Below are positions 1 to 39,091 of a stretch of DNA of 64,000 nucleotides, in pieces. Source of the stretch: Methylovorus glucosotrophus (GTDB lineage: Bacteria > Pseudomonadota > Gammaproteobacteria > Burkholderiales > Methylophilaceae); contig NZ_VMSE01000001.1 in NCBI RefSeq assembly GCF_009858335.1, positions 2,170,001 to 2,234,000 of the forward strand, read 5' to 3'. The notes beneath the pieces are model-generated. The model ran no database searches, was not told the DNA's origin, and was given only the letters and a program-made list of their open reading frames with translations. How positions within the stretch are numbered: the stretch's first letter is position 1; each line of letters opens with the position of its first letter. The translations under genes were made by a program, and so were the position numbers.

Positions 1-1
1 G

Positions 2-292
2 GTGATTGCCAAGGGTGCCGATGCCGTGGCCCTGAAGATTCGTGAAGTGGCCGCCGAGCACAAGATCATGACGCTGGAATCCCCCAAGCTGGCACGGGCG
101 CTTTATGCCCACACCGAGCTGGGCGATGAAATTCCTCAGGCACTGTATTCCGCCGTGGCTGAGATCATCGCTTATGTGTTCCAGATGCGCGCCTTCAACA
201 AGCATGGCGGCTTCCGCCCTGAAACACCGACCCAACTGGATGTGCCGGATGCACTGGATCCCCATCACAAGCTGACTGAGGTAACAGCCTGA
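2..292 (+). CDS. flhB: Flagellar export switch protein FlhB (C-terminal part, cut by window edge)
   Basis: Only the last 96 residues are present; the gene begins before the window, so the first codon here is not a true start. The fragment is the cytoplasmic FlhB_C domain, which follows the autocleaved NPTH site: it opens with VIAKGAD, continues with a helix containing ALKIREVA, and has the typical LYSAVAEIIAYVF segment near residues 47-60. In the flagellar type III export apparatus FlhB switches substrate class from rod/hook to filament proteins when the hook reaches its length. The stop codon overlaps the flhA start (TGATG), so the two are co-transcribed and probably translationally coupled. 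A related free-standing copy of the same domain lies at 32496-32801. Confidence 0.93.
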   Translation: MIAKGADAVALKIREVAAEHKIMTLESPKLARALYAHTELGDEIPQALYSAVAEIIAYVFQMRAFNKHGGFRPETPTQLDVPDALDPHHKLTEVTA

Positions 293-9712: not shown

Positions 9713-9739
9713 ATATCGGCAGGGTTTTCTTAAACTTTA
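9713..9739 (-). promoter_or_regulatory. Sigma-28 (FliA) promoter of flgMN
   Basis: On the minus strand TAAAGTTT (9732-9739), an 11-base spacer (9721-9731) and GCCGATAT (9713-9720) match the FliA consensus TAAAGTTT-N11-GCCGATAA in 15 of 16 positions. The -10 element lies about 50 bases before the flgM start. Confidence 0.93.
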
Positions 9740-25401: not shown

Positions 25402-26646
25402 CTAGACGAAGGTATCCACCATGCCGTTGCCGCTACGCACCACGGTAGACTGCACGGCGGCGGGAGCTGCACTGCCATCTTCCGCAGCATTGCCGGAAGC
25501 ACGGCCACTACGGCCACCCGCTTCTGCCAGTTGCTGCTGGGATTGCGTATGCTCGCCGACGTTGCTCTGCCCAAGCTGGATGCCAGAGGCATTGAGCATG
25601 TCACGCAGATTGGACATGCCATCCTGCAGCGCCTGACGCACTTCCTGGTTGTTGGACATGAAGGTGGCATCGGCAATGTCATTGTGCACATGAATGACCA
25701 CTTGCAGCGGCCCCATGTCAGGCGGGTTCAGGGTCAGTGTGGCAGATTGCTCACCGCCAGCCACCATCCAGGCCACTTTCTGGCCGATGGCCTGATCCCA
25801 GCCTGCGCGGCCAGGGTACGCCGTAATGGTATTGGAACTACCGACGGCTTCGCTCGCCTGCACAGGATTCATGGGCGCAGTCGCTGCGACAGCTTGCGCC
25901 TGGGCAATGGTGGCGGTGTTATCCACCTTGGCTGCTTGCTGTTCAGCCAGCTTGGCGGTTTCGCCTGTACTGAAGCCTGGCAGCATTTTTTCCAGCCATG
26001 CACTCATATCGGCCTGGTCACTGCCAGCCTGCGCAATCTGGCTGGTATCGCTAGTGTCAGTGCGGCTTTGAGCCAGCATATTGCCCAGCTCCTGATCCAG
26101 ACGGCCTCGAGGGCGGCTGTCTGTGGTATCCACCTGCGGCTTCGGGGCGGCTGCGGCATCTTCTGTGGTCAAGGCAGGCTTGTCAGCAGGCGTTACCGGC
26201 ACGTTGGCAGGCACGGCCAGTGCCGCAATGGCAGGATCCGTAGTCACCACGGACGCGGCATCTGTGGTTTCTTTTGTTTCTTCCGACTTCTCAGGCTTGC
26301 CCTTGAGGTCTTTTCCCTGCTTGGCAAGCAAGGCGAGGTCCTTGAACTGGTCAGCCAATTCAGGGGCGATATTGGCGCTGCTGTCTGCGGCATCTTTTTT
26401 GGCGTCAGCCGCCTTGGTATCCGTCGCTTTTTGCTCGGCCTGCGGCGATTTCACATTCGCCGTCGTGGCTTTGCCCTGCTGGCTGTCGTTCTTTTGCTGG
26501 CGCTGCTGCACCTGGTTGGACAGCACTTTCTGAAAACTATTGGTGGCCGCCGCGTTGTCTGTCGTCGTGGACTTGGGGGCATTCATGGAGCCCATGCCAT
26601 TGCTGGACGGGGTGCTGGAAATGATCGGTAACGGGGTATTTTGCAT
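25402..26646 (-). CDS. fliK: Flagellar hook-length control protein FliK
   Basis: Hook-length ruler of 414 residues. The first 280 or so residues are low-complexity, rich in Ala, Lys, Gln, Asp and Thr, as expected of a secreted extended ruler. The conserved Flg_hook domain lies at about 285-375 with GEQSATLTLNPPDMGPLQVVIHV and VRQALQDGMSNLRDMLNASG. Context fliJ-fliK-fliL is canonical. A second protein with a FliK-type C-terminus is encoded at 32791-33924; this copy, by position, is the likely true hook-length regulator. Confidence 0.95.
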   Translation of the reverse strand: MQNTPLPIISSTPSSNGMGSMNAPKSTTTDNAAATNSFQKVLSNQVQQRQQKNDSQQGKATTANVKSPQAEQKATDTKAADAKKDAADSSANIAPELADQFKDLALLAKQGKDLKGKPEKSEETKETTDAASVVTTDPAIAALAVPANVPVTPADKPALTTEDAAAAPKPQVDTTDSRPRGRLDQELGNMLAQSRTDTSDTSQIAQAGSDQADMSAWLEKMLPGFSTGETAKLAEQQAAKVDNTATIAQAQAVAATAPMNPVQASEAVGSSNTITAYPGRAGWDQAIGQKVAWMVAGGEQSATLTLNPPDMGPLQVVIHVHNDIADATFMSNNQEVRQALQDGMSNLRDMLNASGIQLGQSNVGEHTQSQQQLAEAGGRSGRASGNAAEDGSAAPAAVQSTVVRSGNGMVDTFV

Positions 26647-32121: not shown

Positions 32122-32475
32122 ATGGCCATTAACGGAATAGATTCCAGCAGGATAGAATCCATGCTGGCGCAGATCAGAGCGGCAACGCAGAAGCCAGCCA
32201 TGGCGCCTGTTGCTGAGACCACGCCTGCCAGCAACACGCAGAGCACACCCAAAGTCGACTTTGCCGAAACACTGAAAGCCAGCCTGAATCAGGTGAACCA
32301 GTCGCAACTGGAAGCGGAACGCCTGGGCAAGAATTTCGCCATGGGTGATGATTCGGTCAGCCTGTCCGATGTCATGATTGCCGGGCAGAAGGCCAATATT
32401 TCCTTCCAGGCCACCTTGCAGGTGCGCAATAAACTGGTGTCCGCCTACCAGGACATCATGAACATGCAGGTTTAA
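32122..32475 (+). CDS. fliE: Hook-basal body complex protein FliE
   Basis: The 117-residue FliE joins MS ring and rod. The motif VDFAETLKASLNQVNQSQLEAE lies at about 49-70 and the ending NKLVSAYQDIMNMQV is the family C-terminus. It is transcribed away from fliF; the 204-base divergent region contains an inverted repeat GGGAATG (32074-32080) / CATTCCC (32098-32104) that ends 17 bases before the start. I find no sigma-54 or sigma-28 consensus there. Confidence 0.96.
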   Translation: MAINGIDSSRIESMLAQIRAATQKPAMAPVAETTPASNTQSTPKVDFAETLKASLNQVNQSQLEAERLGKNFAMGDDSVSLSDVMIAGQKANISFQATLQVRNKLVSAYQDIMNMQV

Positions 32476-32495: not shown

Positions 32496-32801
32496 TCAGG
32501 GGTGGTATTGCGGCGGCTCCGCGTCCGCATCCTGCTCCAGCCGATAGAGCCAGGCCAGAATCTCCGCAATCGCCATATACAGTTTGGGCGGGATATGGTC
32601 GTCCAGATCAATCTGCATCAGCAAGGACACCAGCTCCTTGGATTCATGCACAAACACATCATGCTCGCGCGCCCGCGCAATAATCTGCTCCGCCACCAGC
32701 CCACGGCCTTTGGCCACCACACGCGGCGCAAAGTCACCGGTCTCGTAGGCCAGGGCTATCGCCTGCTGGGTCAGACCCGCTTCGGCCGGTTTATTCGCCA
32801 T
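32496..32801 (-). CDS. Free-standing FlhB C-terminal-like (EscU/YscU/HrcU family) protein
   Basis: A 101-residue protein equal to only the FlhB cytoplasmic C-terminal domain. It has TQQAIALAYETGDFAPRVVA near the N-terminus, then KGRGLVAEQIIARAREHDV and PPKLYMAIAEILAWLY, which align with the same blocks of the flhB fragment at the window start (VIAKGADAVALKI, PQALYSAVAEIIAYVF). There are no membrane helices and no NPTH autocleavage motif: the protein begins about where the cleaved FlhB C-terminal piece would. I choose the ATG at 32801; it overlaps the end of the FliK-like gene by 11 bases. Bacillus YlqH is a known protein of this kind. A role in export switching is inferred. Confidence 0.9.
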   Translation of the reverse strand: MANKPAEAGLTQQAIALAYETGDFAPRVVAKGRGLVAEQIIARAREHDVFVHESKELVSLLMQIDLDDHIPPKLYMAIAEILAWLYRLEQDADAEPPQYHP

Positions 32802-33924
32802 CACGCACCACCACCAAGGCATCTATCGTTTGCCCGCTTTGTTCCAATGCCTCAAACAGCTGATGCCGACGTGCGCGCATGGTTTGCAGCGTATCGATCT
32901 GCTGCGCCTGCAGCTGTATGCTCATGTGGCCATTCACCACGCGCAGGCGGGCGCTGACGCGTCCCAGTTGTGGCAAGTCCAGCGTCAGCTCGCTGCTGAC
33001 TTCAGGTTCGTAATCCAGCTGCGCGGTGGCGTGATCGGTAGCCGTATCCTGCTGATTGCCGCGCTGCTCCACCGGCACCGAGGGCGGCTGGTACAGCAAG
33101 GGCTGATTGAGAGCAGGATTGGGCAACATGGATTGCTGCAACGGCGATGGCTGATTGAATGCCTGTGCTTGTGCGGTTTGGGCGATGGATGCCGATGACG
33201 CTTGCGCCTGTTGCTGGGATTGCTGCGTCTGTTGTTGCACCTCCACCGACCAGTTCATCTGCTGGCCTGGCCAAACCTCGCCGCGCCAGTTCACCCGGCT
33301 GTTTTCCAGCACGGAAAGCTGCTGCGGCAACAGCATGGTACCAGCGTTGGAGTTGGGTTGATTCTGTGGCTCTTGCAGGATCGCCGCCAGGGGGCGCCCA
33401 CCTTCGGCAAAGGATTTGAGATGCGATTCATAAAACAGCCCGGTCAGCGTGAGGGCCTGCTTGAGATCCTGCGCCATTTGCTGCGGCGCCTGTGGCGATT
33501 GGCTGACAATGCCTGTGGCCTCAAACCGGGTAGGAACGCCCTGCTTCTGGGCTTCCTGCAATTTGCTGTCGATCAGTCGGGCGGCAGAACTGAGGGCAAT
33601 GTCGGGCTCGGCCTCTGCAGTAAGCGATGACATGAGCTGAAAGGTGGGGGTCGGCGTTTCATCCAGAAAACGCAGGGTGAGGTTTTGCCCTACCCTGGCC
33701 TGCGAACCCAGGTCCATCTTGAGCAGCGTGCCGCCAACTTCCACATTGAAATGCCGCGGATCGGCACGGGACATCACCTGGGCCAGATAATCCTGGCCCT
33801 TGATGAATTGATTGAAACGAAAATCGACATCCTGAACAGTATCGGCAACCCTGACCGTAGGCAGCGCCTGGGTTACCCGGCTAACCGGCGCAACTCCTGG
33901 CGTATCCGATAGCTTGATCTGCAT
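32791..33924 (-). CDS. Second FliK-like protein (Flg_hook C-terminal domain)
   Basis: Protein of 377 residues. The N-terminal part (about 50-110) reads as a beta-rich segment including FNVEVGGTLLKMDLGSQ. The middle (about 200-290) is very rich in Gln, Ala and Ser. The C-terminal domain (about 298-377) resembles the FliK Flg_hook domain: ELTLDLPQLGRVSARLRVVNGHMSIQLQAQ spans its first strands, and LFEALEQSGQTIDALVVV ends it. It is translationally overlapped with the FlhB-C-like gene, so the two probably work together. In Bacillus ylqG (FliK-like) and ylqH form a similar pair. It differs from the fliK at 25402-26646 and is probably not the main ruler. Confidence 0.85.
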   Translation of the reverse strand: MQIKLSDTPGVAPVSRVTQALPTVRVADTVQDVDFRFNQFIKGQDYLAQVMSRADPRHFNVEVGGTLLKMDLGSQARVGQNLTLRFLDETPTPTFQLMSSLTAEAEPDIALSSAARLIDSKLQEAQKQGVPTRFEATGIVSQSPQAPQQMAQDLKQALTLTGLFYESHLKSFAEGGRPLAAILQEPQNQPNSNAGTMLLPQQLSVLENSRVNWRGEVWPGQQMNWSVEVQQQTQQSQQQAQASSASIAQTAQAQAFNQPSPLQQSMLPNPALNQPLLYQPPSVPVEQRGNQQDTATDHATAQLDYEPEVSSELTLDLPQLGRVSARLRVVNGHMSIQLQAQQIDTLQTMRARRHQLFEALEQSGQTIDALVVVRDGE

Positions 33925-33933
33925 GGCAGTTCA

Positions 33934-34254
33934 TTACTGCCGATAACTGCTACCGAGTCGACGCTCGTTGCTGTTGCTGCTGATCATGGCCGACAGCTTG
34001 ACCATCCAAGGATCCACCAGATTGCGGATTTCACGGTCATCTGCCAGGATTTTCTTGATGCTGGCGATCTTGCGCTGCAAGGATGGCCCACTCAAATGCT
34101 CTTCGGTGCAGGACTTCAGTTGCTGCACAAAATCCGCGCAGCGCTGCTCCAGCTGTGCCAGGCGCTCCCAGTCATGTTCGCGCGCTGCCAGCAGCATTTC
34201 GCCAGTGACATCGGCCACAGACTCGTAGATTTGGACTTCCATGGATTCACTCAT
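33934..34254 (-). CDS. fliT: Flagellar export chaperone FliT
   Basis: Small helical protein of about 106 residues immediately after fliS, as is usual for FliT, the chaperone of the filament cap FliD. It contains AAREHDWERLAQLEQRCADFV (about 23-43), a pattern common in FliT-family proteins, then KIASIKKILADDREIRNLVDPW. The ATG at 34254 overlaps the fliS stop (TGATG); a GTG three bases upstream is possible. The call rests partly on position. Confidence 0.85.
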   Translation of the reverse strand: MSESMEVQIYESVADVTGEMLLAAREHDWERLAQLEQRCADFVQQLKSCTEEHLSGPSLQRKIASIKKILADDREIRNLVDPWMVKLSAMISSNSNERRLGSSYRQ

Positions 34255-34697
34255 CACGATGCCTTTGCGTAATTTTGTACACGCTGAAACTGGGTGTTGT
34301 CAGGTGAAACCTGGATACCAATGGCTTCCCAGGCACTCTTGAGATCGCCCAACAGGCGTATGACTTCCTGTATCAGCGATGGATCATTTTTAATATTGGC
34401 CATATAGAGACGGTCGCTCATATAGCCGTACAGCGCATCCAGACTGGTGGCAATCTCGCCACCGGCTTTTTTGTCCAGACTCAGGCGCAGGCCGCTCTCA
34501 ATCACCATGATCGCCTTGGAGATCATGGCACTCTTGCGTTCAAAATCCTTGGCTTCCATATGCATCACGGCGGTGTGGCAGGCCGTCATGGCACCGTCAT
34601 ATAACATCACCACCAGCTTGTGGGGGTCGGCGGAGACCACGCCGGTTTCAACGCCAACCCGGGAATATTCATTCACACCACGACTAGATCCAAACAT
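34254..34697 (-). CDS. fliS: Flagellin export chaperone FliS
   Basis: Protein of 147 residues with the FliS pattern: VETGVVSADPHKLVVMLYDGA (about 16-36), ERKSAMISKAIMVIESGLRLSLD (from about 53) and LYGYMSDRLYMANIKND. FliS binds the flagellin C-terminus and stops premature polymerisation. It lies 25 bases after fliD in the fliD-fliS-fliT order typical of many bacteria. Confidence 0.96.
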   Translation of the reverse strand: MFGSSRGVNEYSRVGVETGVVSADPHKLVVMLYDGAMTACHTAVMHMEAKDFERKSAMISKAIMVIESGLRLSLDKKAGGEIATSLDALYGYMSDRLYMANIKNDPSLIQEVIRLLGDLKSAWEAIGIQVSPDNTQFQRVQNYAKAS

Positions 34698-34722: not shown

Positions 34723-36714
34723 TTAGCTGTTTGCCGAAAGTTGCGCGAGCTGCTGGGTCAGGTAGCTGCTCGTCGTTTTCATGCTGGCGACCAGAGTATC
34801 CAACGCGCTGAACTGGGCGCGGTAGCGTTTTTCAATCGCATCCAGACGATCATTCAAGGCCTCCTCCTGCTTGGTCAAACGAGTTATTGAGCTGTTCAGA
34901 CCATCGGTACGCGTCGCGAGCAAGCCATCGTCGCTCAGCAGATTGGTCGTGACTTCATTCAACTGGCTGGCGAAGCCCTTGCTGAAGGTAATCGTGCCGC
35001 GACTGCCGGTGCTGCCACCCAGAATCTTGACGAACAGGCCTTCAGAATCGTCACCCGTCGCGCCCTTCAAGCTCTGCCCTGTGCCGGTAGCGGCAACGCC
35101 ATTGATCGAGCCGGCGACATTCACACCGGTGGTGGAAGTGGCACTGCCAAACAGATCGCTGGCACCATTGCCACCATTCAACGTAATCCGCGAATCAGAA
35201 CCGTAGCTGGGCGAAGTGATTTTCAGCGCACCGCCGCCATCCACGCCAATCTGGGCCAGGGAACCTGCACTCACCAGCTGCTGCTGCACCTGGTCAGCCA
35301 GGGCCTGGGTGCTGGCATAAGTGCCTGCGGCGAGCGTAATGCTGTAGTCCTTGCCGTCAATCGAAAAGGTCACCTTGTCGTTGCTGCCGGCGGTAATCGT
35401 CAGGTTAGGGGCGCCACCGCCCACCATGGTGCCCTGGGTGGCCAGCTGTGTCACCGTCACGGCATAGGTACCGGCCTTGGTAGCGGTGGAGCTGCCGCCG
35501 TATGCAGTCAGCGCATCCGTGGTCGTGCCGCTGGCACCAAACAGTTTTGAAATATCAGAGAAATTGGTTTCCAGAGCAGTCTTGAGCTTGGTGCTATCCA
35601 GCGCAAGTTTGCCATCGCGCTGAAAGCCGACGCCAATTTGCGACAGGGTGCTGTAAGTGCTGGTGCCATCAATGGTCTGGGTAAAAATACTTTTCATCTG
35701 GGTGGAGATGGAGCGTGCGCCAGAATCCCCCAGCAATACGCCAGACTTGGTGCTGTCTGTCGCATTGAAATTGGTCAGGTTGCGTATGGTGGTGTCGAGG
35801 GCGTTGTAGGCATCGACAAACGCCTGCACATTCTTGACGATACCATCCGTATCGGTAGCCACATTCAGATTGGTGGCGGTGCCGGTGCCTACCTTGAGCA
35901 GATTGAGGGTCACGCCCTGAATCGCGTCTGTAATGGTATTGCTGGACTTGGTGACACTGATGCCATCCACTGTCAGCAAGGCATTGGTAGCAGCCTGGCT
36001 TTGTGTCATGTTTTTGCCCGCGCCTGCCGTGCTGGTTGGGTCGTAGGCCAGCTGCGAAAGACCGCTGGCATCGCTGCTGTTGCCATCGCTATCGGTTACG
36101 CTGATCTTGACGCTACTGGAGGCACCCGTCTCTTTGGAGGTCACCACCAGACGCGCACCATTGGTGGAGCCGTCATTCACAATCGACGCCGTCACACCGG
36201 CATTGGCGGAATTGATCGCATCGCGCACGCCAGCCAGGGTGTTATTGGAAGAGTCAATGGTGATGGTCGCCCCGGTTTTGCTGCCGTTGACGCTAAAGGT
36301 ATTGGTGGTGCTGTTGTACTCGCCGAAGCTGATCTCCAGCGTGCCGCTACCGATTACCGCGTTGGTCGAGGAAAAACCGGAAGAAGCGATCTTGTGCGCT
36401 TGGGCAAGCTGGGTCACATTGATCGAGTAATTGCCCACAGTAGCACTGCCGGTGGCAGTAGCCGTGAACAGGCTGGTATCGCTGGACGTTGCCGTTTGCA
36501 GGTTGAATTTGGATGCGGTTGCCAGACTGCTGATCGTGGTCTGGAAAGTTGACAGCGCACTTTTCAAGGTGCCATAGGCCGATATCTTGGATTGCGTTGC
36601 AGTCTTTTGCGCGGTTACTTGGGTAAGAGGGCCTTTTTCTGCGTTGACTAATGCCGTCACCCAGGTCTCGAGCTCCAGTCCGGAACCACTTCCTAATCCT
36701 GTCAATGTCGCCAT
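34723..36714 (-). CDS. fliD: Flagellar filament cap protein FliD (HAP2)
   Basis: Cap protein of 663 residues, at the long end for the family. The N-terminus starts MATLTGLGSGSGLELETWV with the FliD_N pattern and a coiled-coil (VNAEKGPLTQVTAQKTATQSK from about 28). The C-terminal FliD_C region has GLLATRTDGLNSSITRLTKQ and EERLDAIEKRYRAQFSALD-type helices to the end. The middle is rich in Ser, Thr and Gly with several Ig-like beta stretches. It lies 22 bases after flaG. Confidence 0.96.
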   Translation of the reverse strand: MATLTGLGSGSGLELETWVTALVNAEKGPLTQVTAQKTATQSKISAYGTLKSALSTFQTTISSLATASKFNLQTATSSDTSLFTATATGSATVGNYSINVTQLAQAHKIASSGFSSTNAVIGSGTLEISFGEYNSTTNTFSVNGSKTGATITIDSSNNTLAGVRDAINSANAGVTASIVNDGSTNGARLVVTSKETGASSSVKISVTDSDGNSSDASGLSQLAYDPTSTAGAGKNMTQSQAATNALLTVDGISVTKSSNTITDAIQGVTLNLLKVGTGTATNLNVATDTDGIVKNVQAFVDAYNALDTTIRNLTNFNATDSTKSGVLLGDSGARSISTQMKSIFTQTIDGTSTYSTLSQIGVGFQRDGKLALDSTKLKTALETNFSDISKLFGASGTTTDALTAYGGSSTATKAGTYAVTVTQLATQGTMVGGGAPNLTITAGSNDKVTFSIDGKDYSITLAAGTYASTQALADQVQQQLVSAGSLAQIGVDGGGALKITSPSYGSDSRITLNGGNGASDLFGSATSTTGVNVAGSINGVAATGTGQSLKGATGDDSEGLFVKILGGSTGSRGTITFSKGFASQLNEVTTNLLSDDGLLATRTDGLNSSITRLTKQEEALNDRLDAIEKRYRAQFSALDTLVASMKTTSSYLTQQLAQLSANS

Positions 36715-36736: not shown

Positions 36737-37099
36737 TCAAGCCGTTTGTTTAATAACCAGACCTTGCAATTTATCCAGCGTCTTGGAAATCGCCAGCACT
36801 TCTTCGTTGGGGATTTGCCGCAACACTTTGTTTGTTTCTGTATCCACTACTTTCACCACGACTTTTCCGGAATCCTGATCCATGGAAAATTGCACACTCT
36901 GTGCCACGGGTGAAATAAAACTGTTCAGCGTTTTTACCGCCGCTGCAATATCCTTATCACTCGCTGTCTTGTTGGTGTCGTTTTGCGCAGCCGTTGTCTG
37001 GGCTGGTGCTGACACTGTCGCTGCTGCCCTGCCGCCACCCAAACCCTGGGGGCTGCTGCCAGCGCCATATGTATATGCATTTATATTTGCGATCGACAT
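36737..37099 (-). CDS. flaG: FlaG family protein
   Basis: A 120-residue protein in the standard fliC-flaG-fliD position. The N-terminal half is low-complexity (Ala, Thr, Asp). The conserved FlaG domain occupies about 55-118: VQFSMDQDSGKVVVKVVDTE, then VLRQIPNEEVLAISKTLDKL. FlaG affects filament length in some bacteria; its mechanism is poorly known. An AAAGGAG ribosome-binding site precedes the start. Confidence 0.93.
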   Translation of the reverse strand: MSIANINAYTYGAGSSPQGLGGGRAAATVSAPAQTTAAQNDTNKTASDKDIAAAVKTLNSFISPVAQSVQFSMDQDSGKVVVKVVDTETNKVLRQIPNEEVLAISKTLDKLQGLVIKQTA

Positions 37100-37182: not shown

Positions 37183-37983
37183 TTAGCCTCTCAGGAGGGT
37201 CAGCACGTTTTGCGGTACGGTGTTAGCCTGGGCCAACATCGCGGTACCTGCCTGTTGCAGAATCTGCGTACGGGTCAGGTTGGCGGTTTCTGCCGCAAAG
37301 TCTGCATCCATGATCCGTGACTTGGCTGCCGACTGGTTTTCAACCGATACTTGCAAGGCGCTGATCACAGACTCAAAGCGGTTTTGCACAGCACCCAGCG
37401 TAGCGCGGTTGGTATTGGCAGTGTTCAGGGCCGTATCAATCGCAGACAGTGCAGTGTTGGCAGCCGTGTCAGTCAGGATGTTGCCTGAGATCGAAGATGC
37501 TGCTACTGCGCTAACGGTGATGGTTTGACCACTATCTGCACCCACCTGGAAGGTCATGCTGGTAGAACCGAACACAGCGATACCGTTAAACTTGGTGTCA
37601 GTGCCCAGACGTGTGATTTCACTAGCCAGTTGCTGGAATTCAGCATCCAGGTTAGAACGGTCACCAGTACCGTTGGTGGCGTTGGCAGATTGCACAGCCA
37701 GTTCACGCATACGTTGCAGTGCATCGGTTACTTTACCCAGCGCGCCTTCAGAAGTTTGTGCGAAAGAGATCGCATCGTTAGCGTTACGGATCGCAACCGT
37801 TTGACCGCGAACCTGGGAGTCCATACGCGTTGCGATGGACATACCAGCAGCGTCATCCTTAGCGCTGTTTACGCGCAGACCAGAAGACAAACGTTGCAGC
37901 GAAGTATTCAGGCTCGACTGAGAAGACGACAGGTTACGTTGAGCATTCAGCGAGGCGATGTTGGTGTTAATTACAGCAGCCAT
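37183..37983 (-). CDS. fliC: Flagellin
   Basis: Filament protein of 266 residues. The N-terminal D0/D1 part begins with VINTNIASLNAQRNLSSSQ and contains SSGLRVNSAKDDAAGMSIAT (about 33-52); the C-terminal D1/D0 part has SRIMDADFAAETANLTRTQI and ends with the QANTVPQNVLTLLRG pattern. Only about 40-50 residues separate the conserved ends, so the outer D2/D3 domains are nearly absent: a minimal flagellin. An AAAGGAG ribosome-binding site and one or two sigma-28 sites precede it. The codons are regular, consistent with high expression. Confidence 0.98.
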   Translation of the reverse strand: MAAVINTNIASLNAQRNLSSSQSSLNTSLQRLSSGLRVNSAKDDAAGMSIATRMDSQVRGQTVAIRNANDAISFAQTSEGALGKVTDALQRMRELAVQSANATNGTGDRSNLDAEFQQLASEITRLGTDTKFNGIAVFGSTSMTFQVGADSGQTITVSAVAASSISGNILTDTAANTALSAIDTALNTANTNRATLGAVQNRFESVISALQVSVENQSAAKSRIMDADFAAETANLTRTQILQQAGTAMLAQANTVPQNVLTLLRG

Positions 37984-38062: not shown

Positions 38063-38089
38063 TTATCGGTTACTTTTAGTGAAAATTTA
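38063..38089 (-). promoter_or_regulatory. Sigma-28 promoter of fliC (proximal)
   Basis: On the minus strand TAAATTTT (38082-38089), an 11-base spacer (38071-38081) and ACCGATAA (38063-38070) match the FliA consensus in 14 of 16 positions. The -10 lies about 80 bases before the fliC start, giving a leader of ordinary length. Confidence 0.9.
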
Positions 38090-38222: not shown

Positions 38223-39023
38223 TTATGCACGCTGAGCCGAAACTCGCGTGGTCAACTGCTTTGCTGCCTTGTTTAGCTTGGTTTGATCCCATGGCTCATT
38301 GACGATTTTCTGAAAATTCCGCACTTCATGCAGGACTTGATCGTCGCTTTGGATCACTTCGGTGAGACTATCCAGTGTCAAATTGAGCAAACGGATGAAC
38401 GCTTTCTGCTTGCCGTACTCATCTTCGGTCACCATGCTGATGCGATAACTGAGCTCATTGACCTCGCGCATGACCTTTTGCATGGCCCGGTAAGATTGTG
38501 TTGTCTTCACCTGTTCAGCCAGCTGACGTGACTTCATGGCCAGCTCGGATTCGTTCTGCAACAATGCAGGCAAAGTATGTGCCAACATCTTGGCAAGCTG
38601 ATCCTGCCAGGGTCGGCCATCATCTGCGGCATTGCTTAAATCACCAAAGGCGGCAAACCGGGACCGTTGCGACTGGATGGCCACCGAGGCCTTCACCAGC
38701 TTGAAAATCCCGTCCAGCAATGCATCCCAGTCTTCATTCTCAATGGCATAGGCCAGCTTCATCCCCGCTTCATTGGAGTTTTTCGCCAGCTGGCGGGCCA
38801 CTTTCTGAAAGCGCTGCTCCAGCATGCTGGGAGCGGCAGGCGTCGGGCTGCCCTGTTGTGGGGCGCTCGTCGGCGCGGCGGCCTGTTGTCCAGTCAATTC
38901 CAGATACAAGGCCTGATAGGCTTCAGGCGTAGGCGCAATATCACGCGCCTCCAGTCGTGCCAGGATTTCCTGGCCGAGCAAGGCGGGTTTCTGCTGATAG
39001 ATATGGAGAGTAGGGTCTGCCAT
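38223..39023 (-). CDS. Uncharacterised helical protein upstream of fliC
   Basis: The 266-residue protein starts at the ATG at 39023, which has an AAAGGAG ribosome-binding site; the upstream frame extension lacks one. No signal peptide or membrane segment is seen. An N-terminal segment with IAPTPEAYQALYLELTGQ (about 28-45) is followed by a Pro/Ala/Gln linker (about 47-65) and long charged helices to the end, such as ALLQNESELAMKSRQLAEQV and IQSDDQVLHEVRNFQKIV. The N-terminal PTP-Y pattern and the helical body recall the regulatory part of some proteobacterial diguanylate cyclases, but no GGDEF motif is present here or in the 240 bases downstream. The function is unknown; its place beside fliC suggests a flagellar or signalling role. 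Confidence 0.75.
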   Translation of the reverse strand: MADPTLHIYQQKPALLGQEILARLEARDIAPTPEAYQALYLELTGQQAAAPTSAPQQGSPTPAAPSMLEQRFQKVARQLAKNSNEAGMKLAYAIENEDWDALLDGIFKLVKASVAIQSQRSRFAAFGDLSNAADDGRPWQDQLAKMLAHTLPALLQNESELAMKSRQLAEQVKTTQSYRAMQKVMREVNELSYRISMVTEDEYGKQKAFIRLLNLTLDSLTEVIQSDDQVLHEVRNFQKIVNEPWDQTKLNKAAKQLTTRVSAQRA

Positions 39024-39065
39024 GGCTGCATCTCCTTTGCCGCTCGGGCAAAGGCTCCGTCTATA

Positions 39066-39091
39066 GTTTGATTCCGCCATGCTAATCAAAC
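39066..39091. promoter_or_regulatory. Inverted repeat GTTTGATT-N10-AATCAAAC
   Basis: Perfect eight-base arms at 39066-39073 and 39084-39091 with a ten-base spacer, 43-68 bases before the start of the gene at 38223-39023. Its size and place suit a dimeric regulator's operator. The 139-base region up to the next gene holds no other clear feature. Confidence 0.5.

Follow-up and report, generated by a model that had tools for sequence, protein, structure and literature searches.

In a stretch of 64,000 nucleotides from Methylovorus glucosotrophus (contig NZ_VMSE01000001.1, positions 2,170,001 to 2,234,000; hereafter the window), two overlapping flagellar genes, fliK2 and fhlB, encode a second FliK-type protein and a free-standing C-terminal cytoplasmic domain of FlhB. 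Judged by sequence comparison, fliK2-fhlB is a real and widely kept module. The FhlB family (FlhX, TIGR00789) is already known; what is new is its coupling to a FliK that lacks the trigger, with the pocket for early export substrates kept. We propose that the non-triggering FliK2 holds a detachable FhlB, and that the complex, made with the filament genes, would tune early export at the gate. We offer this as a tentative reading, to which we give somewhat less than an even chance.

Identity and co-retention of fliK2 and fhlB

The initial annotation of this DNA had described the pair as a cut-down copy of the two partners of the export switch, a second FliK-type C-terminal domain beside a free FlhB C-terminal protein, in a genome that also bears a full flhB and an ordinary fliK. 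This description holds, and it extends well beyond the Methylophilaceae. FhlB matches PF01312 only over positions 259-335 of 335 (66.8 bits, cut-off 24.4), and thus covers the FlhB C-domain alone, with the membrane part absent. FliK2 matches PF02120 over residues 309-374 (47.5 bits, cut-off 29.8). Whole-genome searches (E <= 0.001) returned two matches for each family: the full flhB and FhlB for PF01312, and the ordinary FliK gene (fliK1) and FliK2 for PF02120. The full flhB is an open frame of 404 residues that extends across the left boundary of the window. For fhlB, the frame is open from 32822 (108 codons), and an ATG at 32801 gives the 101 residues previously assigned; the 11-base overlap, also as annotated, lies at 32791-32801, at the end of fliK2. 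A FliK2 that is 90% identical to the one examined here is named as Methylovorus.

Co-occurrence was assessed in three draws of genomes, sharing some members, which were searched with an FlhB model (PF01312 or TIGR00789) and with PF02120. Among 61 genomes drawn from the genus, family and order of this bacterium, FlhB was found in 42; both second copies were present in 41 of these and neither in one, and FhlB followed the second FliK domain on the same strand in 41/41 cases. This count leaves out weak PF02120 matches below the cut-off, five of which are in FlhB-less genomes. The phylum draw (113 of 130 genomes with a match) gave both second matches in 62 genomes, a second FlhB-C match only in 17, a second FliK match only in 0 and neither in 34. 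The corresponding numbers for the class draw (115 genomes, one per family, 62 with a match) were 39, 3, 0 and 20; phylum and class counts are counts of matches, so that a second match may be the full FlhB of a second flagellum. The same cell is thus empty in all three draws: no genome in any of them had a second FliK match without a second FlhB-C match. The printed Fisher values overstate the significance, because the genomes within a draw are related. In the class draw, all 42 hand-picked FhlB-type matches (mostly short frames) had a FliK domain just upstream on the same strand; the exceptions there were a genome with a linked pair and no other FliK (G264), one with two full-length frames (G236) and one with a weak, broken piece (G300). 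Two of the 42 come from genomes, G217 (C1:2593225-2593682) and G228 (C293:3161-3681), that were found to carry the pair only, with no other FlhB-C or FliK match; such genomes may hold the remnant of a lost flagellum, or sequence may be missing from them.

A wider view came from named genomes, in which at least 572 relatives were found and 80 kept. FliK2 lies directly before FhlB in 75 of the 80 loci by gene order, or in 71 by a stricter distance rule. The other five loci, four of them from Accumulibacter, have no FliK2 near FhlB; whole-genome searches found a second over-cut-off FliK in four of these genomes, 13 kb off or on another contig, while the fifth has a single match per model and looks incomplete. 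In the phylum-draw loci FliK2 is directly upstream in 17 of 29, once weakly, and in three genomes (G105, G133, G117) a FliK lies 3.9 to 8.3 kb from FhlB. The distant second FliK in such genomes means that fliK2 and fhlB are often kept even when they are not adjacent. The conserved co-occurrence that the initial annotation had suggested checking was therefore found in the order, phylum and class draws and in the named genomes, and a confinement of the pair to close strains was rejected. Since the two genes are kept together so widely, they probably work as one unit.

FhlB and FliK2 beside FlhB and the ordinary FliK

FhlB has neither the membrane anchor nor the NPTH autocleavage motif. The PTH motif was absent from all of 90 FhlB (three counted twice) and from all 80 FhlB of the named genomes; the 26 comparison FlhB of the order had been selected by NPTH, so that its presence in 26/26 is no test. 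One FhlB, L066 (G003), has NPRH a few residues ahead of the first strand, which may be a vestige of NPTH or mere chance. The best NCBIfam match of FhlB is TIGR00789 (flhB_rel) with 92.7 bits, under the curated cut-off of 117.35. This cut-off was reached in 0/130 genomes of the phylum draw and 0/115 of the class draw, and thus excludes both draws as a whole; on its match score, FhlB is a relative of TIGR00789 and not a curated member.

What FhlB has kept is the pocket for early substrates. When 41 FhlB and 26 FlhB of the order were aligned, 23 of 76 columns had the same residue at >=85% in both sets, and all four pocket positions were among these 23 (chance 0.007). Comparing residues only, A286, P287, A341 and L344 (Salmonella numbering) occur in 40, 41, 41 and 41 of the 41 FhlB, with T at 286 as the single variant. 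Of the 48 FhlB outside the order, 5 have S at position 286 and 8 have I at position 344. Position 286 is reported to work with A, V or S, and position 344 with L, I or V (PMC9307174); by that description, the variants found elsewhere are mostly working ones.

Other positions are characteristic of FhlB. In the 41 proteins of the order, R302 is changed to I in 38, L313 to H in 40, A319 to V in 36, H325 to Q in 36, Y346 to W in 38 and R351 to E in 40, and R320 is deleted in all 41; conserved basic residues of FlhB are thus replaced. The mean identity among these 41 FhlB (0.66) is close to that among the 23 FlhB C-domains compared (0.68), and FhlB is therefore no chance reading frame. FhlB co-occurs with a full-length FlhB in the same genome, to which its mean identity is 0.42 (23 genomes), and in a tree a single split with a local support of 0.90 sets all 39 FlhB C-domains apart from all 89 FhlB, which is modest evidence because the aligned stretch has about 80 residues. 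Up to three FhlB are present twice in the tree set. Four FlhB rows (G025, G050, G037, G044) were dropped by the selection pattern, G050 and G044 in fact having NPTH, and three further FlhB were left out of the tree; 2 of 18 fetched FlhB were also left out. The tree split and the same-genome identity led us to reject a recent duplication of the FlhB of the same cell. We read FhlB, from these alignments, as an old and separately constrained protein and not as a decaying copy. A small-genome lineage (family f44: L048, L055, L058, L061, L063) bears a third type of FhlB, in some cases in two copies per genome and in many without a second FliK match.

FliK2 combines a recognisable switch core with an unusual remainder. 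The core gives fold matches to the SS domain of PscP and to the FliK C-domain. The C-terminal VDxF[AV] tip was found in 18 of the 21 ordinary FliK sought (20 were retrieved; the missing one is that of G056) and in no FliK2, be it in the order (0/41), in the named genomes (0/75) or outside the order (0/17). Upstream of the core, the GLFYESH and WPGQ motifs of FliK2 were found in none of 20 ordinary FliK, and the only match between FliK2 and FliK1 outside the core is weak and prone to low complexity (E 0.007). The N-terminal part has conserved motifs and a predicted folded domain, features that would argue against a plain secreted ruler. Prediction of the whole FliK2 fold from 67 of 120 listed homologues gave a mean predicted local distance difference test score (pLDDT) of 61 and a predicted template modelling score (pTM) of 0.41, with two reliable parts only.

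A possible role for the pair in flagellar export

Several observations bear on a physical link between the two proteins. Both domains occur in one protein in 2 of 103 matches, P0244 (458 residues) and P0245 (280 residues), each from one contig and hence possibly an artefact of assembly; P0244 has the last FliK strand merged with the first FhlB strand. If genuine, these two natural fusions help the case for a FliK2-FhlB contact. The distances of FhlB and of the FliK2 core remained correlated after removal of FliS and FliD (partial r 0.52, 97 of 141 loci), compared with 0.30 for FhlB-FliS and 0.01 for FhlB-FliD in the same analysis. With regard to position, the annotated placement beside fliT, fliS, fliD and fliC is seen here, where the minus-strand order is fliC, flaG, fliD, fliS, fliT, fliK2, fhlB, and it is frequent among relatives: in Betaproteobacteria-type loci the pair mostly comes after fliC-flaG-fliD-fliS-fliT, and FliT or FliS is the next recognised gene upstream of FliK2 in 57 of 75 named loci and 30 of 41 loci of the order (window included).

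A 2026 paper argues that the gate changes its specificity by ejection of an FlhB domain (PMC13344023). In the view of its authors, this domain, once cleaved, contributes to upholding the early state and serves as a docking site for early substrates, until FliK expels it when the hook is complete. FliK tip and core both matter for the switch (PMC10965912), and in Salmonella the C-terminal tip of FliK is needed to flip it (PMC10965912, PMC13344023). Under this ejection model, a FliK core may hold a domain instead of ejecting it, and FhlB may dock early substrates while untethered to the gate. We thus envisage fliK2 and fhlB as one two-protein module, in which FhlB would serve as a detached and exchangeable version of the FlhB docking domain for rod and hook substrates. 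The switch core of FliK2 would bind FhlB and, having no terminal tip, would hold it and not eject it; such a holder is plausible because the YscU domain, a relative, forms aggregates on release (PMC3504009). The complex would be produced together with the filament genes and would act at the export gate or next to it, at about the time of the switch or later, once FlhB's own domain is lost, where it could tune the amount of remaining early export. The sequences themselves show the two genes, how they are linked and retained together, the absence of the tip and the conserved pocket residues; the contact, the timing and the action on the gate are what we infer from them.

A number of observations weigh against this proposal. 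The missing tip is not universal, because some FliK2 end in a short VDxx[AV] tail (8/17 outside the order, 1/75 among the named genomes). One genome of the order (G045) bears FlhB yet has one FlhB, one FliK and no pair. FhlB may work alone, given the 17/113 phylum-draw genomes that have a second FlhB-C and no second FliK match; at least some of these, L048, L050 and L063, have a clear free FhlB with no FliK2 nearby. Outside Betaproteobacteria-type loci, fliS or fliT is beside the pair in only 3/19, and the case for co-transcription and late timing consists of gene spacing and a single match to a consensus. FhlB is correlated just as well with the N-terminal part of FliK2 (0.53) as with the core, and because this part and FliS correlate with FhlB too, shared descent explains part of the signal. 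Finally, a joined FliK2-FhlB chain, modelled from 62 of 74 listed FliK2 rows and 8 of 74 listed FhlB rows, reached a pTM of 0.50 with a poorly folded FhlB half, whose pLDDT ranged from about 27 to 76 per block and which was modelled without its strands; this model speaks neither for nor against a contact.

The initial annotation had gone further and inferred for the pair a role as a second export switch for late substrates. In such a switch, FliK2 would measure something and flip FhlB to set late export. The two domain families do adjoin each other, in many cases within a run of late genes. Nevertheless, the data do not support a plain second switch, because FliK2 lacks the tip, FhlB lacks anchor and PTH, and the basic residues are replaced; nor does the N-terminal part of FliK2, with its motifs and predicted fold, resemble a plain ruler. 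We consider such a switch very unlikely; a late-acting holding complex is the more likely of the two. Rather unlikely, in our estimate, is that FhlB does no more than substitute on the gate for an FlhB C-domain that is lost or damaged, with FliK2 as a delivery chaperone and no regulation involved. HP1575 of Helicobacter pylori is reportedly described in just this way, in the title of Wand et al. 2006, as acting as a spare part upon deletion of the FlhB CC domain, and the kept pocket residues fit such a role. A mere replacement would, however, have no need of fixed class-specific differences (R302 to I, R320 deleted, H325 to Q, R351 to E), and FhlB stands apart from FlhB in the tree.

The loss of the anchor with retention of the pocket residues, together with the siting of fhlB among late genes, would also suit a soluble trap that, once the switch has taken place, binds leftover rod and hook subunits or ordinary FliK in the cytoplasm and holds them away from the gate. 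This we regard as unlikely, since it leaves unexplained why a second FliK was never seen without FhlB. A further reading, which we take to be quite unlikely, makes FhlB a reloadable cartridge: after FliK has expelled the C-domain of FlhB itself, FliK2 would bring fresh FhlB to the gate and reset a switch described as irreversible to the early state, for example for flagellum repair or restart. Fluke (Flk) is a second inhibitor described in Salmonella, and the pair could hold the early state in bacteria that lack it. A match to E. coli Flk was found in 1/130 phylum-draw genomes (G098), which has one FlhB-C and one FliK match. This single genome says nothing statistically, many genomes are without both Flk and the pair, and the late gene position speaks against an early-state lock, so that we find this idea most improbable.

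For decades, the hook-to-filament change of the export gate has been an open question. The pair is frequent in the class draw (39 of 62 genomes with matches). To our knowledge, E. coli and Salmonella lack it; if so, part of the control circuit may be missing from the organisms that have been studied best. FhlB is a separate-protein form of the very FlhB domain that is ejected in the published model (PMC13344023), and that model is testable here because a loose FlhB domain and a triggerless FliK can be removed or added separately.

Gene surroundings and known relatives

Coordinates of the features in the window are collected in the table.

Table. Flagellar genes and related features in the window
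Feature	Position	Strand	Description
fhlB (FlhX type)	32496..32801	-	free FlhB C-terminal cytoplasmic domain, 101 residues, without membrane part and NPTH
fliK2	32791..33924	-	second FliK-type protein, 377 residues, 11-base overlap with fhlB
FliK2 residues 309-374	32803..33000	-	Flg_hook / T3S4 switch core; protein ends 3 residues on, without C-terminal tail
FliK2 residues 162-230	33235..33441	-	conserved region of GLFYESH to WPGQ type
fliT	33934..34257	-	9 bases upstream of fliK2
fliS	34254..34697	-	between fliD and fliT
fliD	34723..36714	-	FliD_N and FliD_C
flaG	36737..37099	-	between fliC and fliD
fliC	37183..37983	-	flagellin; the run starts with this gene
sigma-28-like promoter match	38063..38089	-	upstream of fliC; 1 mismatch to consensus
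fliE	32122..32475	+	converges on fhlB
fliK1 (ordinary FliK)	25402..26646	-	C-terminal end VDTFV
flhB 3' end	1..292	+	full flhB, only the last ~290 bases inside the window

Sigma-28-like matches with <=2 mismatches to the consensus are in excess in the window (11, with 2.2 expected), one of them, at 9713-9739 on the minus strand with one mismatch, lying away from fliC. Sigma-54 sites in the window showed no excess (37 compared with 42 expected), and sigma-70 and terminator scans stayed at chance level. Upstream of fliC, a 288-codon open frame (38226-39089, minus strand) has no family match over the cut-off. At 67 of the 75 named loci and 45 of the 58 others, FhlB has a start codon that precedes the end of fliK2; these counts are generous because the nearest start was taken. 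At two loci, L163 (4965-4967, TGA) and L070 (G009; TAG), fliK2 and fhlB share one reading frame, interrupted between them by a single stop, and so come close to a fusion. Some gammaproteobacterial pairs (L110, L112, L116) adjoin ccmB, L112 also cheW, away from fliDST.

Titles and abstract openings returned by our literature search, with most subscription journals outside its coverage, held nothing on a FliK2-FhlB pair, and no title or abstract opening treated YlqG-YlqH as a pair. These Bacillus subtilis proteins, named as a counterpart in the initial annotation, are presumably a FliK-like and FlhB-C-like pair. A 'flhX-fliK' locus of Nitratiruptor is mentioned in passing in PMC9321776. In comparison with the FliK T3S4 domain (2rrl) and the PscP SS domain (5cuk), FliK2 lacks the C-terminal tip and has GLFYESH and WPGQ upstream. 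FhlB belongs by sequence to the same family as the FlhB C-domain (PF01312; structures 3b0z, 3b1s, 6z0w), with the pocket residues kept, and differs from it in having no anchor, no PTH, a one-residue deletion at R320 and replaced basic residues. Likened by description, it resembles the small FlhX proteins (TIGR00789), such as HP1575, a listed homolog of FlhB (PMC2864241), and Cj0848c, given as flhX (PMC4894983), which are also free-standing FlhB C-domains. Unlike FlhX as described, FhlB is linked with a second FliK and with the run of fliDST genes.
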